Part shown: positions 17,897-62,612 of the stretch, piece after piece | How positions within the stretch are numbered: the first letter of the stretch is position 1 | How the letters are laid out: every line of letters starts with the position of its first letter | NCBI RefSeq assembly: GCF_025971955.1 | Contig: NZ_JAPDMX010000028.1 | Coordinates: 124,001 to 188,000 of the forward strand | Direction: 5' to 3' | Length of the DNA: 64,000 nt | Origin: Shewanella subflava | GTDB lineage: Bacteria; Pseudomonadota; Gammaproteobacteria; Enterobacterales; Shewanellaceae | Position numbers and translations under genes: made by a program | Notes under the pieces: model-generated | The model's input: only the letters and a program-made list of their open reading frames with translations | Databases searched by the model: none | What the model was told of the DNA's origin: nothing

Positions 17897-18346
17897 CCTA
17901 TTGATTCGTTTATTTGTTATTGGATAAAGAAAGGCAAAAGCTGATATTTATTTCACCATGACAAAAATAAAATGCTGAAAGATAAACTATCTTCGCTCAC
18001 GATGATAAGAAATGTTGGTTTGATATAGTATTCTTTATAAATCAGAGTTTTAAATATTATAATTTATTTGCAGACGGGGTGTCCTTGGCTGAGTTCAATA
18101 GCAACACTCTATAGGCACAGCCGCGGTTGATGTGTGTTCATATTTTCTATTTTGAAAAGGCGCTTCGCCCACACCAGACCAAAGGGGCAAAACGCACGCT
18201 TTTTTTACAAAAGAAGCCCTTTGGAAACCCTCAGCGCCCCAGACGAAAAATGCTGAAAAACGCATATTTTCGATGGGGTTTGATTCAGCATTAAACTTCA
18301 TTTTTAGCTTACTTCTGCCATTGTCTAAAAGCCCTAACGCTTCCGA

Positions 18347-18395
18347 TAGGCCATCCGTGGCCTAACGAAAGCTAGCTTGGCATCCATGCCAAGCT
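18347..18395. repeat. Tandem hairpins with CATCC(A/G)TG cores
   Basis: Two perfect palindromes in a row: TAGGCCATCCGTGGCCTA (18347-18364) and AGCTTGGCAT-CC-ATGCCAAGCT (18374-18395), joined by ACGAAAGCT. The linker plus second hairpin recurs at 58.13 kb with one or two changes. Confidence 0.9.
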
Positions 18396-54246: not shown

Positions 54247-55707
54247 TTAAGCTTTTTCTGGAATGCGCTCTAACACTGCTAATAGTAGCTGCCAGTATTG
54301 ACCAACGGTTTCAATGTTAACCATTTCATCAGGGCTATGCGGGTAGCGAATGGTTGGGCCAATCGACACCATGTCCATGTTTGGGTAAGGCTCTTTAAAT
54401 AAGCCACACTCAAGACCTGCATGGATCACCATAATGGTTGGGTCTTTTTTATAAATGTCGTTATAGGTGTCGCGCACAATTGCCATAACCGGCGAGCTGT
54501 TATCTGGCTTCCAGCCAGGATATGCGCCACTAAATTCAATGCTGGCACCGGCAAGATTGGCTAACGCATTTAACATGCCTTGCACTTCATCTCGACCAGA
54601 ATCAATTAATGAACGAATTAAGCATAATATTTCAACGCTTTCCTGTTCAGTATTTATCACGCCAACGTTTAATGACGTTTCTGTCACGCCTGCAACTTCA
54701 TCACTCATGCGCATCACGCCATTGGGGCAAGCATGCAAGAAATCGATTAAACAGTTTTGCGCATCTTCACCCATCACTTTGGCAGGGGCATCAATTGATT
54801 TAAGAGTCAGTAACATGCTTGGATCGGCAATGGCTAACTCTGCACGGACAACGGCTTGAAAATCACTGATCGCTTGCTTTAAGGCGTCAACATTTTCACT
54901 TGGTAACATAAAGCTAATGCTGGCCTCACGCGGAATGGCATTACGCAGCGAGCCACCAGTGAAATCAACTAATTCTAGGGCTAATTCATCGCTATATTTA
55001 AATAAGAAACGCGCCAGTAATTTGTTGGCATTACCACGGCCAAGGTGAATGTTTACCCCTGAGTGACCGCCTTTAATGCCTGACAATGTCAGCTTGAATG
55101 ATTGATTACTTAACTCTGGTGCTTGCCATGACAAGGGAAGGGATATCTGCGCATCCACACCGCCAGCACAGCCCATGTAAATTTCACCTTCTTGTTCAGA
55201 GTCGGTGTTGATCAAAATCTCGGCGTCTAAATACCCGGCTTCTAGGCCAAATGCGCCAGTCATGCCAGCTTCTTCATCAATGGTTAATAACACTTCTAAA
55301 GGGCCGTGTTTAATGTCATCGCTGGCTAAAACCGCTAACGCTGATGCCATACCAATGCCATTATCTGACCCTAAAGTGGTGCCTTTCGCTTTTACCCACT
55401 CGCCATCAACATAGGCTTCGATAGGATCTTTTTCAAAGTCATGCACTTTATCTGCATTCTTTTGCGGCACCATATCAATGTGTGCCTGCAGCACGACAAT
55501 TTTGCGGTTTTCCATGCCAGGTGTAGCAGGCTTACGGATAATAAGGTTACCTACTTTGTCTTCAACAACGCTAAGGCCTTTACCTTTTGCCCACTGTTGA
55601 ATGTGATTTGATAATGCTTGTTCATGCTTAGAAGGGTGGGGAATAGCACAAATTTGTTCGAACCATTGCCATAGAGGTTGTGGATATAATTGGTTTAATG
55701 CGGTCAC
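54247..55707 (-). CDS. pepD: Cytosolic nonspecific dipeptidase (aminoacyl-histidine dipeptidase)
   Basis: 486 aa, M20 family. Metal ligands in VVLQAHIDMVPQ (His, Asp), GSDNGIG, DEEAGMTG (catalytic Glu), NTDSEQEG and the C-terminal HAGLECGLF. A lid/dimer domain is inserted in the middle. It hydrolyses dipeptides including Xaa-His. It converges on dinB and is divergent from the M17 aminopeptidase at 55898. Confidence 0.94.
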   Translation of the reverse strand: MTALNQLYPQPLWQWFEQICAIPHPSKHEQALSNHIQQWAKGKGLSVVEDKVGNLIIRKPATPGMENRKIVVLQAHIDMVPQKNADKVHDFEKDPIEAYVDGEWVKAKGTTLGSDNGIGMASALAVLASDDIKHGPLEVLLTIDEEAGMTGAFGLEAGYLDAEILINTDSEQEGEIYMGCAGGVDAQISLPLSWQAPELSNQSFKLTLSGIKGGHSGVNIHLGRGNANKLLARFLFKYSDELALELVDFTGGSLRNAIPREASISFMLPSENVDALKQAISDFQAVVRAELAIADPSMLLTLKSIDAPAKVMGEDAQNCLIDFLHACPNGVMRMSDEVAGVTETSLNVGVINTEQESVEILCLIRSLIDSGRDEVQGMLNALANLAGASIEFSGAYPGWKPDNSSPVMAIVRDTYNDIYKKDPTIMVIHAGLECGLFKEPYPNMDMVSIGPTIRYPHSPDEMVNIETVGQYWQLLLAVLERIPEKA

Positions 55708-57495: not shown

Positions 57496-57548
57496 AAAAC
57501 CTTTATTTTGTAATGATATTACTTAATAAAGGTTTTTTATGATTAAGA
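57496..57548 (+). terminator. Intrinsic terminator of the M17 aminopeptidase gene
   Basis: Outer stem AAAACCTTTATT / AATAAAGGTTTT with an inner GTAAT-GAT-ATTAC stem, then a T tail. Confidence 0.85.
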
Positions 57549-57559
57549 TCAAAAAATAC

Positions 57560-57587
57560 TTGTAATTTAATTACAGTTTCGTATAAT
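57560..57587 (+). promoter_or_regulatory. Sigma-70-type promoter for a short transcription unit
   Basis: -35 TTGTAA (57560-57565) and -10 TATAAT (57582-57587) with a 16-base spacer. Transcription would start at about 57592-57595, right at the structured leader. Confidence 0.65.
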
Positions 57588-57591
57588 TACT

Positions 57592-57688
57592 CTCGTTGGC
57601 TGGCGTGACGCCGTCAATACTAGTAAATCCAGGATGGATGTTATCTCCAAGGAAACGAGTGAAAGAAAGTTGTCTCAATGGATTGAGA
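57592..57688 (+). ncRNA. Candidate structured RNA leader
   Basis: Outer stem CTCGTT (57592-57597) / AACGAG (57654-57659) encloses two perfect hairpins: GGCG-TGA-CGCC (57602-57612) and ATCCA-GGA-TGGAT (57627-57639), a three-way junction. A further perfect hairpin TCTCAA-TGGA-TTGAGA follows (57673-57688). Two of the three loops expose GGA. I cannot match it to a riboswitch class. It lies between a promoter and a 30-codon ORF. Confidence 0.5.
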
Positions 57689-57752
57689 AAAAGTAAGTTC
57701 CATGGACCAGAGCCACTACTAGGTTTAACAACTTTAATTTGGAGAATTTATT

Positions 57753-57845
57753 ATGTCTTATTTAGGCAATGGCAAAATTTATTGGCAAAACACTTGGATT
57801 AACCCAGAAGTTTTGCGTGGCGGTTTATTCGCCATGAAGTTTTAA
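57753..57845 (+). CDS. 30-aa small protein of an unrecognised family
   Basis: The ORF starts MSYLGNGKIYW and ends LFAMKF; it is basic and aromatic (two Trp, two Tyr, two Phe), with no membrane segment. GGAG lies 8 bases before the ATG (TTGGAGAATTTATT-ATG), a good ribosome site. It is framed by a promoter and structured leader upstream and two C-loop hairpins plus a terminator downstream, which argues for a real unit. I do not know the family. It might be a leader peptide, a small regulator, or the minor product of an RNA whose main role is non-coding. Confidence 0.55.
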   Translation: MSYLGNGKIYWQNTWINPEVLRGGLFAMKF

Positions 57846-57938
57846 ATCGCTTTACTTATTTCCGTTTGACCGTTCACCACCTTTTTTCGTCGTTTTGACG
57901 TTTTGACTCGGGTAATTGATCAACTTGATTGATTCCCT

Positions 57939-57980
57939 TATCACTCCCCCAAGTGATACTAGTTTTCCGTTCCCCAACGG
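57939..57980 (+). ncRNA. Two C-rich-loop hairpins in the 3' part of the same transcript
   Basis: TATCACT-CCCCCA-AGTGATA (57939-57958) and CCGTT-CCCC-AACGG (57967-57980). Unpaired C-runs of this type often pair with GGA/GGAG ribosome sites in regulatory RNAs. Confidence 0.45.
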
Positions 57981-57997
57981 GATGCTTGAACCATGTC

Positions 57998-58025
57998 AGC
58001 CTACTCTATGAGTAGGCTTTTTTTT
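57998..58025 (+). terminator. Intrinsic terminator of the short transcription unit
   Basis: Stem AGCCTACTC / GAGTAGGCT with a TAT loop and a T8 tail. Strong. Confidence 0.93.
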
Positions 58026-58764
58026 GCCTGTTTTTTGTTATTTCATAGGCATGAATGAGCAGTTATTGGCGTTTGAAATAAACGGATTTACAAATGTCAC
58101 GGTGGCAGGGATGTCAAAGAGTGACCATGGCCTAACGAAAGCTAGTTTGGCATCCATGCCAAGCTCACGGGTTCTCGAAATAAAGAGTCTCGATGACCTC
58201 AATTTAAATCTAATAGGTAATAATCCCTTTGTAGATCCTGCTTCGGGGCGCTTTACGCCATCCATGGCCGCTTAACGAAAACGTCCCTGTTTTCGATACC
58301 CTCAGCCGTATCTACACCGGGCCATTTTATCTCTTCGATTTGGCTTTATTTGAACCCAAGATTTAAAGCAAAATGATACTTTGAATTAAATTTTTATGTT
58401 TTTTCTATTAGTAACAAACAATGCTAAATCGAAGAGACGAAAATTTCAGGGACCTTTGATTTATAAAAGAGTGCAGCGTGTCACGGTCGTGCTTGCACAT
58501 AAGGTCGCTCTTTCACATCCATGTAAACGCGACATTCCGTTCATCCTGAACATCCCAGCGGCAGGCAATGGATTAGATTGCCGTCACGGACTCACTTAAC
58601 CTACCCAGTACAACTTTTATTAAAACATTGAGTTAAAAAGTATAAAGTAGATTAAAGTATCAAAACTTAAGGACAAGGTAGGGTAAGCTCGAACATATTC
58701 ATCGAGTGCGCCATTCAGGGAAGAAAAAGCCATTCAATAGTATGTGCATATCAACCCCCTTTTT
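58026..58764. other. Gene-free region of repeats related to the 18-kb block
   Basis: No supported gene; the small open frames run through palindromes. It contains the CTAACGAAAGCTAG-TTGGCATCCATGCCAA module (58129-58165), a branched fold at 58230-58316, AAATCGAAGAGAT motifs in both orientations (58321-58344 and 58423-58438), the CAGCGTGTCACGGTCGTGCT string (about 58474) and two further hairpins (58504-58551). Confidence 0.8.
58230..58316. repeat. Branched palindromic repeat unit
   Basis: Outer arms TGTAGAT (58230-58236) and ATCTACA (58310-58316) enclose GCCATCCATGGC (58257-58268) and CGAAAAC-GTCCCT-GTTTTCG (58276-58295). Confidence 0.75.
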
Positions 58765-58805
58765 AAAGTTTACTCTGACCCACTAATTTCCTGACCCACT
58801 AATTT
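58765..58805. repeat. Left inverted repeat flanking the POT transporter gene
   Basis: Reads, on the minus strand, as two tandem AAATTAGTGGGTCAG-type units and then AGTAAACTTT. It is the inverted counterpart of 60681-60722. Confidence 0.85.
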
Positions 58806-58908
58806 CTATCCTTACTGCTTTTTCACCCACTTCTGGATCGAACTTGTATTCCCGTTCAATAGTCGATAGCATAAAATTAACAAATGTATACAATATACGA
58901 GAATAGTA

Positions 58909-60615
58909 ATGACTACAGAACGTACCCCTTTACCGAAGACGTTTTTTGTCGCCAATACCATGGAGATCTTCGAGCGACTCGCTTGGTATGGCTTCTTTAC
59001 CCTTTCATCGCTTTACATTACATCGCCACACAATCAAGGTGGCTTGGGCTTTACCGAGCAAGAACGTGGGTTATTACAAGGGATGATCCCTTTCTTTCTC
59101 TATCTGTTCCCGGTGTTAACCGGGGCTTTGGCCGATCGTTATGGCTATCGAAAAATGTTCCTAATCGCCTACGGTATTATGTGTCCCAGCTATTATCTGC
59201 TTGGGCAAGTCACCAGCTTCAGTGGTTTCTTTATCGCCTTTATGGGCGTAGCGATTGGCGCGGCTTGCTTTAAACCTGTGGTGACAGGCACTGTAGCCAG
59301 AACCACTGACAATACCAATCGAGGCATAGGCTTTGGTATTTTCTACATGATGGTAAATATTGGCGGATTTCTTGGCCCCTTTATCGCTGGCTATGTACGC
59401 GCCATTAGCTGGGACTGGGTGTTTATCATGTCGGCGTTCTGGATAGGCCTTAATTTCATTCCCGCCATTTTCTTCTACCAAGAACCCACAGATCCCCATA
59501 AGCAACAAGGTAAGCCACTCTCGCAAGTGTTAAAGGATATTCAGGATGTATTGGGTAACGCACGTTTTGCCATCCTCTTCTTTGGCACATTAATCATCTT
59601 AATGTCTTACGGCGCAAAGTGGATCAGCGGCCAAACTTGTCTAATAACCTATGCCCTCTGGTTTAGTGGCCACGGACTATGGAACTACCTGGCCAGCCAT
59701 CAGCGCAATGCGCCTTGGTATCGACAAAAAATTACAGTAGGTAATAAGCCATTTGTAACTTACTTATTGATACTCTCTGGTTTTTGGATGGTCTATCAGC
59801 AGATATTTATTACCTTACCTATCTATATCCGTGACTTTGTCGATACCCAAGACTTAGTACAGTTACTTGCATGGTCGCCCGATCTGCTGGCATTCTTTGC
59901 GCCCGTCGATCTGTCACTTATTAACAGTGAACTACAGCGTTTAGCTGGTGAGCACCTTGCTGGTGTGATTAATGCTCAGCAAGTCTATTTTGAGCTGGTG
60001 CATACCAAGATAATGGTACCGCTCAATGTACTCAATGATGCCTTGCCACTAATAGGACAATCCCCAACACTGGCACAGCAGTACGCAGAGCAATGGTCAA
60101 GCCAATATCGCCAGATTAATCCTGAGTATCTTATAGGGTTAAATTTCCTCTCTATCGTATTGATGCAGATCGCGGTCAGTCGTATCGCAGAGAAGTTCAG
60201 TCCGCTTCCCGTGCTGGTTGCAGGTACCCTGATTTTAGCACTCGGCACAGCATTAGGCGGACTTGCCCATGGTATCTTGATGGGCGGCGCTATGGTACTC
60301 ACCTCGATACTGGTGTTCTCAATTGGTGAAATGGTGGCCTCGCCGAAAAGTCAGGAGTATGTCGCCAGTTTTGCACCGCACGATAAGAAAGCGATGTTTA
60401 TGGGTTATTACTTTGTTTCATCAGCCATCGGCTTTTTATTGGCTGGGCCTCTCTCTGGCTACCTCTATGCCGAAGTAGCTAAGGCGGCTAATCAACCAGC
60501 ATTGATGTGGTACATCATTGGCGGGCTTGGCGTCGTCGCTGCCTTGGGGTTAGTACTGTTCCACCGTTTTAGCGTAATGAAGCCGTCCACATTAGATATA
60601 ACGCAAACGGCTTAA
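58909..60615 (+). CDS. POT/PTR-type MFS transporter
   Basis: 568 aa, at least twelve membrane segments. The N-terminal EIFERLAWYGFFTLSSLYI resembles the ExxER(F)xYYG motif of proton-coupled oligopeptide transporters (here ERLAWYG), and LADRYGYRKMF is the MFS loop 2-3 motif; YMMVNIGGFLGPFIAGYVR follows. The protein is longer than typical POT members (~500 aa), with a ~60-residue hydrophilic insert around residues 330-400. The substrate may be peptides but is not certain. The gene stands alone between two inverted 41-42-bp repeats in a repeat-rich area, suggesting mobility. Confidence 0.82.
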   Translation: MTTERTPLPKTFFVANTMEIFERLAWYGFFTLSSLYITSPHNQGGLGFTEQERGLLQGMIPFFLYLFPVLTGALADRYGYRKMFLIAYGIMCPSYYLLGQVTSFSGFFIAFMGVAIGAACFKPVVTGTVARTTDNTNRGIGFGIFYMMVNIGGFLGPFIAGYVRAISWDWVFIMSAFWIGLNFIPAIFFYQEPTDPHKQQGKPLSQVLKDIQDVLGNARFAILFFGTLIILMSYGAKWISGQTCLITYALWFSGHGLWNYLASHQRNAPWYRQKITVGNKPFVTYLLILSGFWMVYQQIFITLPIYIRDFVDTQDLVQLLAWSPDLLAFFAPVDLSLINSELQRLAGEHLAGVINAQQVYFELVHTKIMVPLNVLNDALPLIGQSPTLAQQYAEQWSSQYRQINPEYLIGLNFLSIVLMQIAVSRIAEKFSPLPVLVAGTLILALGTALGGLAHGILMGGAMVLTSILVFSIGEMVASPKSQEYVASFAPHDKKAMFMGYYFVSSAIGFLLAGPLSGYLYAEVAKAANQPALMWYIIGGLGVVAALGLVLFHRFSVMKPSTLDITQTA

Positions 60616-60680
60616 TGATGCTGACTTGGTGCCGCTTTCATTTAAGCGGCGTCGAGTTAGGCCAGTCAAAAAACGCCAAA

Positions 60681-61322: not shown

Positions 61323-62612
61323 ATGTTAGAAAAACTATTTAAACTGAAACAAAACAATACCTCGTTAAAACAAGAAGTGGTTGCTGGACTGACTACGTTT
61401 TTAACTATGGCTTACATTATCTTTGTTAACCCTATGATGCTTGCTGATGCAGGGATGGATCATGGCGCAGTATTTGTCGCAACCTGTTTAGCGGCGGCAA
61501 TTGGCTGTTTGATCATGGGATTATTAGCAAATTATCCAATCGCTTTAGCACCAGGAATGGGACTGAATGCGTTTTTCACTTACACCGTCGTCGGCGAGAT
61601 GGGATACAGCTGGGAAACCGCGTTAGGCGCGGTGTTTATGTCTGGTGTTTGTTTCTTAGTGTTGTCTCTAGTCAAAATTCGTGAGTGGATTGTGAATAGC
61701 ATTCCAATGTCATTACGGTTAGGTATTGCTGCGGGTATTGGTCTGTTTTTAGCATTAATCGGCCTTAAAAGTGCGGGCATTGTGGTGGCAAGTCCTGCCA
61801 CGTTAGTCACTATGGGTGATATCACCTCATTTCCGGCAGTAATGGCATCACTTGGGTTTTTCCTGATCATTGCTATGGTGCAGCGCGGCTGGAAAGCGGC
61901 GGTAATCTTAAGCATCATGATAGTGACGGTATTAGGTTTGCTATTTGGTGATGTGCAATACAATGGGGTTATGTCATTGCCGCCTTCTATTGCGCCAACA
62001 TTCATGAAAATGGATTTATCAAGCGTATTAGAAATCAGTATGATTTCAGTGATTTTTGCGTTCTTGTTTGTCGATTTATTCGATACATCAGGCACCTTAG
62101 TTGCTGTGGCTCAACGTGGTGGTTTTTTAGATGATAAAGGCCGTTTACCAAGAGTGAAACGTGCATTAACCGCAGACAGTGTTGCCACCATTACCGGTGC
62201 TGCATTAGGCACTTCAACCACCACAAGTTACATTGAAAGTACAGCAGGTGTCAGTGCTGGTGGTCGTACCGGTTTAACCGCTGTTGTGGTTGGGGTATTA
62301 TTTTTAGCCGCCTTGTTCCTTTCGCCACTGGCTGGAATGGTCCCTGCGTATGCGACTTCAGGCGCACTATTTTATGTCGCTATTTTAATGATGTCTGGTC
62401 TTATCAATGTGGATTGGGATGACTTGACTGAAGCTGCACCTGTAGTGGTCACTTGTTTATTAATGCCGCTTACCTTCTCTATTGCGAACGCCATTGGTTT
62501 CGGGTTTATTTCTTATTTAGTGATAAAGCTGTTAACGGGCCGTATTAAAGACTTAAATGCCGGAGTGGTATTTATTGCCTTGTTGTTCTTAGTGAAGTTT
62601 ATCTACGGCTAA
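61323..62612 (+). CDS. NCS2 family purine permease
   Basis: 429 aa, about twelve to fourteen membrane segments. AzgA/GhxP-type signatures: EVVAGLTTFLTMAYIIFVNP, ALAPGMGLNAFFTYTVV, FLFVDLFDTSGTLVAVAQR and GTSTTTSYIESTAGVSAGGRTGLTAVVVG. This subgroup imports adenine, guanine or hypoxanthine by proton symport; which one is not clear from sequence. Ribosome site is within a hairpin. A terminator separates it from proB. Confidence 0.92.
   Translation: MLEKLFKLKQNNTSLKQEVVAGLTTFLTMAYIIFVNPMMLADAGMDHGAVFVATCLAAAIGCLIMGLLANYPIALAPGMGLNAFFTYTVVGEMGYSWETALGAVFMSGVCFLVLSLVKIREWIVNSIPMSLRLGIAAGIGLFLALIGLKSAGIVVASPATLVTMGDITSFPAVMASLGFFLIIAMVQRGWKAAVILSIMIVTVLGLLFGDVQYNGVMSLPPSIAPTFMKMDLSSVLEISMISVIFAFLFVDLFDTSGTLVAVAQRGGFLDDKGRLPRVKRALTADSVATITGAALGTSTTTSYIESTAGVSAGGRTGLTAVVVGVLFLAALFLSPLAGMVPAYATSGALFYVAILMMSGLINVDWDDLTEAAPVVVTCLLMPLTFSIANAIGFGFISYLVIKLLTGRIKDLNAGVVFIALLFLVKFIYG

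Follow-up and report, generated by a model that had tools for sequence, protein, structure and literature searches.

What kind of gene lies beyond the M17 aminopeptidase gene in the 64,000-nucleotide stretch of Shewanella subflava DNA analysed here (the window)? A preliminary description had delimited a compact transcription unit at this place, had offered a riboswitch-controlled small protein, a CsrA-binding RNA or a dual-function RNA as explanations, and had recognised neither the RNA nor the peptide. The RNA locus can now be tied to vcdRP of Vibrio cholerae; the peptide belongs to no family of Pfam or NCBIfam.

Architecture of the transcription unit

The unit lies on the forward strand, with pepD (54247-55707, minus strand) upstream and a gene for an NCS2 permease (61323-62612, plus strand) downstream. 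Sequence signals mark both of its ends, namely a sigma-70 promoter, TTGTAA-16-TATAAT (57560-57587), and a Rho-independent terminator with a T8 tail (57998-58025, hairpin 57998-58018). The leader includes a 5' hairpin of variable sequence and conserved fold (57596-57617), a GGA-loop hairpin of the CsrA-site form supported by covariation, AUCC-AGGAU-GGAU (57627-57639), the stretch CUCCAAGGAAACGAG (57645-57659), which by sequence comparison is a leader motif in common with vcdRP (CUCCAAGGAAYCGAG) and holds a second GGA site, and a third GGA hairpin, CUCAA-UGGA-UUGAG (57674-57687), present in many, not all, Shewanella copies. A ribosome site, GGAG (57741-57744), precedes a 30-residue open reading frame (57753-57845) with the translation MSYLGNGKIYWQNTWINPEVLRGGLFAMKF, which recurs in relatives. 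It is followed by the conserved pyrimidine-rich stretch CACCACCUUUUUU (57875-57887), complementary to Shine-Dalgarno sequences and hence a candidate seed for pairing, by a hairpin with a C5 loop (57939-57958, loop 57946-57950), and by UUCCCCA (57970-57976), a C4 motif near the 3' end that is conserved in the alignment and analogous to the C4 seed of VcdR (PMC8672173).

Promoter, 5' hairpin, GGA-loop hairpins, ribosome site, reading frame and terminator are all present as initially described, and GGA motifs are more numerous than had been claimed, at 57632, 57651, 57680, 57704 and 57741. The predicted transcript of ~430 nt folds more stably than its shuffled versions (z = -2.95), and its terminator stands ~150 nt past the reading frame, with no structural gene depending on the unit. 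Judged from its sequence, the unit is a genuine gene, encoding a ~430-nt RNA with hairpins and a 30-residue protein. The three-way junction proposed for the start of the leader is not supported. Its inner 5' hairpin is conserved in fold over 34 leaders (mean z -2.3 in per-sequence folding, 24 of the 34 below -1.64). The outer CTCGTT/AACGAG stem is rejected because it is not conserved and starts at or before the predicted transcription start: the CTCGTT arm begins at 57592, the start is expected at ~57594, several relatives have non-pairing letters in its place (CTCACT, CTTTAT, CAACTCTT), and the arm is absent in Vibrio.

Two further features of the window may be recorded. Extra DNA compared with most relatives separates the element from the NCS2 permease gene (58050-60620) and consists of a repeat block and a POT-like peptide transporter gene. 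A TwoAYGGAY RNA (Rfam RF01731), itself a GGA-loop motif, scores above the gathering threshold at 18338-18395 on the minus strand.

Conservation in Shewanella and the small peptide

Of 98 Shewanella genomes searched at the DNA level, 93 gave a match to the element. The fetched loci yielded 102 distinct elements, each retaining a ribosome site and a start codon ahead of a frame of 29-34 residues; the start of one frame was extended computationally to an upstream in-frame ATG. Conservation of the reading frame, whose absence from related species the preliminary description would have taken as a refutation, is borne out by these elements. The peptide consensus, MSYTGxxxIYWQNTWFNxxVLRGGLFAMxFKG, stands behind a GGAG-like ribosome site, and amino-acid changes are under-represented over all pairs of elements (pN/pS 0.31-0.44) and between the window frame and that of one near relative (dN 0.014, dS 0.20). 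Two or three tandem copies, 650-800 bp apart, occur in many Shewanella genomes, some with diverged peptides such as MYFSHTIYSQSFWLNTEILRGGLYAMTFKG and MSYTGNYTVSLSGTWFSTDALRGGLYTLSAKR.

Outside the genus, a peptide model run over 395 genomes of the order found nothing above chance; weak matches in several genomes proved on inspection to lie in other frames or genes. No Rfam family matched the element at the gathering threshold, and permissive thresholds added chance hits below it, such as OmrA-B over the terminator. An in silico survey of small RNAs in Shewanella strain WP3 makes no mention of this locus in its main text. The 29-34 residue family is absent from both protein libraries, Pfam and NCBIfam, and is likely unannotated in most genomes.

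Leader hairpins as candidate CsrA sites

Ahead of the leader motif, 93 of 95 leaders from Shewanella, 29 of 30 from Vibrionaceae and 2 of 4 from Ferrimonas carry the GGA-loop hairpin, which turns up in 6-18% of shuffles. Its stem takes the forms AUCC/GGAU, GUCC/GGAC, GCUC/GAGC, GUUC/GAAC and UGUC/GACA, and in a hairpin-centred alignment the covariation score reached 0.817, compared with 0.204 for shuffled and at most 0.084 for slid versions, so that the covariance check suggested earlier came out in favour of this hairpin, which is conserved with compensatory changes in its stem. The alignment comprised 26 hairpins picked by pattern, with nine elements lacking a pattern match excluded, and its figure of 100% paired therefore leans towards structure, a bias that does not extend to the variety of stems. 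RNAalifold detected no covariation in a MAFFT alignment of the leaders, in which the 5' hairpin was misaligned, and was replaced by per-sequence folding together with the hairpin-centred alignment. Loops of the form ANGGA or AGGAN are those bound by CsrA, and with a GGA-loop hairpin conserved in this way the leader is a good candidate for CsrA binding.

An orthologous locus in Vibrionaceae

According to Venkat et al. 2021 (PMC8672173), VcdRP of V. cholerae has been demonstrated by experiment to be a dual-function RNA, keeping the uptake of sugars in balance with central metabolism: its 29-residue peptide VcdP is translated and activates citrate synthase, four cytosines of VcdR pair with PTS mRNAs, and the gene is located between vc2278 and vc2279. 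The reported place led to a search beside pepD. With the pepD protein of the window as query, a frame of 28-29 residues divergent from pepD was found in five of six genomes of a Vibrio-like genus, with the consensus MKGLPSAxFWxNSSVYTSNFAYPTSFGY; it is taken as VcdP by place, length and architecture rather than by sequence. The region upstream of it shares two sequences with the window: CAAAAAATACTTGTAAT, which contains the -35 box, and CTCCAAGGAACCGAG, the leader motif.

From the comparison of Shewanella with the Vibrio-like group a pattern was derived, consisting of the -35 box, 70-100 bases and then the 15-nt leader motif CTCCAAGGAAYCGAG, and 84,980 species were scanned with it. At least 119 stretches matched, where about two matches were expected by chance (an estimate), and the 80 loci listed belong to Vibrio, Aliivibrio, Photobacterium, Salinivibrio, a member of the Vibrionales, Shewanella and Ferrimonas, and to nothing else. 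A Shine-Dalgarno sequence and a frame of 24-34 residues follow the pattern in 79 of these 80, the exception being a contig end. Synteny, which the pattern does not demand, holds as well: a divergent pepD, or an M17 or NCS2 gene, adjoins the element in 78 of the 80 listed loci, in the order pepD (divergent, upstream), M17 gene (in Shewanella and Ferrimonas) and NCS2 permease (downstream). Shewanella sp. NIFS-20-20 lacks the M17 gene and has pepD 333 bp from the element, as in Vibrio.

A covariance model was trained solely on 33 leaders from Shewanella. In 26.7 kb of sequence the five vcdRP leaders took its top five places, each individually weak (E 0.07-0.5). Applied to the 395 genomes of the order, the model retrieved members of the genus and an intermediate form in one genome of a sister genus (E 1e-6), in which the element follows the M17 gene and has two exact HexR palindromes and a 31-residue peptide; one other match lay inside a coding gene and was discarded. 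The peptides themselves do not align detectably, the Shewanella profile matching that of VcdP with an hhalign probability of 0.4% and with p = 0.12 in a profile permutation, which is not significant.

These comparisons allow us to regard 57509-58025, with high confidence, as the Shewanella counterpart of vcdRP at an orthologous locus. The suggestion of a dual-function RNA in the preliminary description is thereby well supported by analogy, since the counterpart is experimentally shown to be one. That the Shewanella peptide and VcdP would also act on a common protein target is an analogy of lower confidence.

HexR and CRP sites

The signal set described earlier as full had missed an exact HexR-type palindrome, TGTAATTTAATTACA (57561-57575), whose left half is the -35 box. 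A motif scan found it to be one of 3 exact TGTAAT-N3-ATTACA sites in the 4.09-Mb genome (HexR consensus TGTAATTAAATTACA, PMC11906056). A second palindrome with one mismatch, TGTAATGATATTACT (57509-57523), stands 52 bp ahead of it, within the loop of a terminator-like inverted repeat 3' of the M17 gene (AAAACCTTTATT ... AATAAAGGTTTT and a T run, 57496-57538, plus strand). In 95 of the 102 elements the site at the -35 box has no more than one mismatch; in 84 of 102 a further HexR-type site accompanies it 51-53 bp upstream, about five turns of DNA away. The only RpiR-type regulator gene of the genome (PF01418) lies between zwf and pykA, and other HexR-type sites stand ahead of ppsA and a gap gene. 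On this basis HexR-type control of the Shewanella element is predicted with high confidence.

Control in the Vibrionaceae is differently arranged: a HexR-type palindrome is found 73-74 bp upstream of the -35 box in the majority of loci (44 of 46 when up to two mismatches are allowed), and a CRP site, again with at most two mismatches, lies between it and the -35 box in 43 of 46. In the VcdRP study CRP is described as repressing vcdRP from a binding site ahead of the -35 box, and neither HexR nor the GGA hairpin is mentioned as an input (PMC8672173), so that the HexR site in most Vibrionaceae loci and the conserved hairpin add comparative evidence for vcdRP inputs beyond that study. Only 17 of 98 Shewanella promoters keep a CRP site of this quality. 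In the window, the CRP-like site read from the sequence at the corresponding position (TATGATTAAGATCAAA, 57538-57553) is degenerate and weak, its function probably lost. This loss makes identical control less likely but does not bear on orthology of the locus. Carbon control in Shewanella is described as depending on HexR and not on CRP (PMC3223726), and a swap of regulators at an orthologous RNA gene would offer a testable case of rewiring.

The 3' part and a possible version without peptide

Of the two C-rich loops pointed out at the 3' end, the one represented by UUCCCCA is kept by all 13 of the 13 elements from the wider clade of the window, and the C5 loop does not extend beyond the closest relatives. 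Runs of four or more C occur in the 3' part of 72 of 102 Shewanella and 41 of 46 Vibrionaceae elements. In five Shewanella genomes that lack the element, the place ahead of the NCS2 permease gene is occupied by a unit of ~340 nt. It has a HexR-like promoter, GUCCCCAA as a conserved sequence, and a 3' end and terminator resembling those of the element, and no conserved reading frame or recognisable peptide was found in it. Read from its promoter and 3' end, not its middle part, it is possibly a peptide-less version of the element.

Proposed function and alternative explanations

The explanation as a whole, in which the locus is the Shewanella member of vcdRP, a HexR-controlled gene for a dual-function RNA, is very probable; the dual function, by analogy with VcdRP, is held with moderate confidence. 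Because the palindrome overlaps the -35 box, HexR would repress the gene, and KDPG from sugar breakdown would release it, so that the RNA would be made in growth on sugars, as is VcdRP, via relief from CRP. CsrA bound to the GGA hairpins and the ribosome site may tune translation or stability. The peptide would adjust an enzyme of central carbon metabolism, by orthology citrate synthase (GltA), and the Hfq-type 3' part with its C-rich seeds may pair with ribosome sites of carbon-uptake mRNAs.

The dissimilarity of the peptides leaves room for a narrower homology, in which promoter, leader and place correspond to vcdRP, the peptide is an unrelated one that acts on a partner of its own, and only control and RNA activity are conserved. 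The failure of the two profiles to match, the subclade in which promoter and 3' end persist but no peptide can be recognised, and the divergence of peptides in tandem copies such as MYFSHTIYSQSFWLNTEILRGGLYAMTFKG all speak for it; yet every lineage has a peptide of the same length class at the same position, an aromatic-Trp core ([FY]W-x-x-[ST]) starts both, and 30-residue peptides easily diverge beyond detection, so we consider a separate protein rather unlikely. That there is no functional peptide at all, the frame having arisen by chance or encoding a leader peptide, and that the unit, under HexR, does no more than titrate CsrA or base-pair as an RNA, would suit the several GGA sites and the peptide-less version in five genomes. 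It is improbable given that ATG, Shine-Dalgarno sequence and frame are kept in 102 elements under constraint on amino-acid changes, that the terminator stands ~150 nt after the frame and no structural gene is dependent on it, and that VcdP of Vibrio is translated (PMC8672173).

The structured leader is all that recommends the riboswitch-controlled small protein of the preliminary description, an explanation now very improbable: no Rfam family matches, the conserved leader letters are those of short GGA hairpins rather than of a large ligand pocket, and no conserved alternative terminator or anti-SD switch was seen in the leader. A type I toxin-antitoxin unit, suggested by short reading frames in tandem copies with long leaders, is scarcely credible, since a membrane-spanning stretch is missing from the peptide, the minus strand at the element showed no promoter-like site, and the chromosomal place is fixed in three lineages.

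Returning to the vcdRP assignment, it is tempting to extend it into a joint reading, a serious but tentative possibility in which the locus would be an ancient RNA where two global carbon circuits meet, HexR (KDPG) acting on transcription and CsrA on the leader. Between Vibrionaceae and Shewanella the peptide would have been exchanged or given a new target; it would also have been multiplied by tandem copying and, in one subclade, have disappeared. As the RNA would have stayed throughout these changes, the RNA and not the protein would be the constant element.

Comparison with known systems

With CsrA-binding RNAs of the CsrB/CsrC and McaS type the Shewanella element has GGA in hairpin loops in common, but it has few such sites, a reading frame and HexR operators, and the UvrY box (TGTAAG-N6-CTTACA, PMC3171408) is not found at the element. 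SgrS/SgrT of enterobacteria likewise places a small reading frame upstream of a base-pairing 3' part (PMC8672173), but differs in place, regulator and peptide, with no sequence relation seen. The HexR regulon of Shewanella provides the same operator, TGTAAT-N3-ATTACA, and a hexR gene beside zwf and pykA, whereas the accessible parts of its descriptions present metabolic operons and no RNA at this place (PMC3223726, PMC5343134).

The closest relation is to VcdRP. The Shewanella element departs from it in a HexR palindrome over the -35 box, where Vibrio has a half site, in the CRP site mostly lost and the M17 gene inserted, in a longer leader with a third GGA hairpin, in a peptide sequence without detectable similarity, and in tandem copies, up to three, and a peptide-less version in one subclade. 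Common to both are the locus, with pepD divergent and the NCS2 permease downstream, the -35 box and its spacing, the 5' hairpin, the GGA-loop hairpin and CUCCAAGGAAYCGAG motif, a frame of 28-34 residues in mid-transcript, a C4 motif near the 3' end and a strong terminator. With this likeness vcdRP ceases to be a peculiarity of Vibrio and becomes a gene distributed across Vibrionaceae, Shewanella and Ferrimonas.
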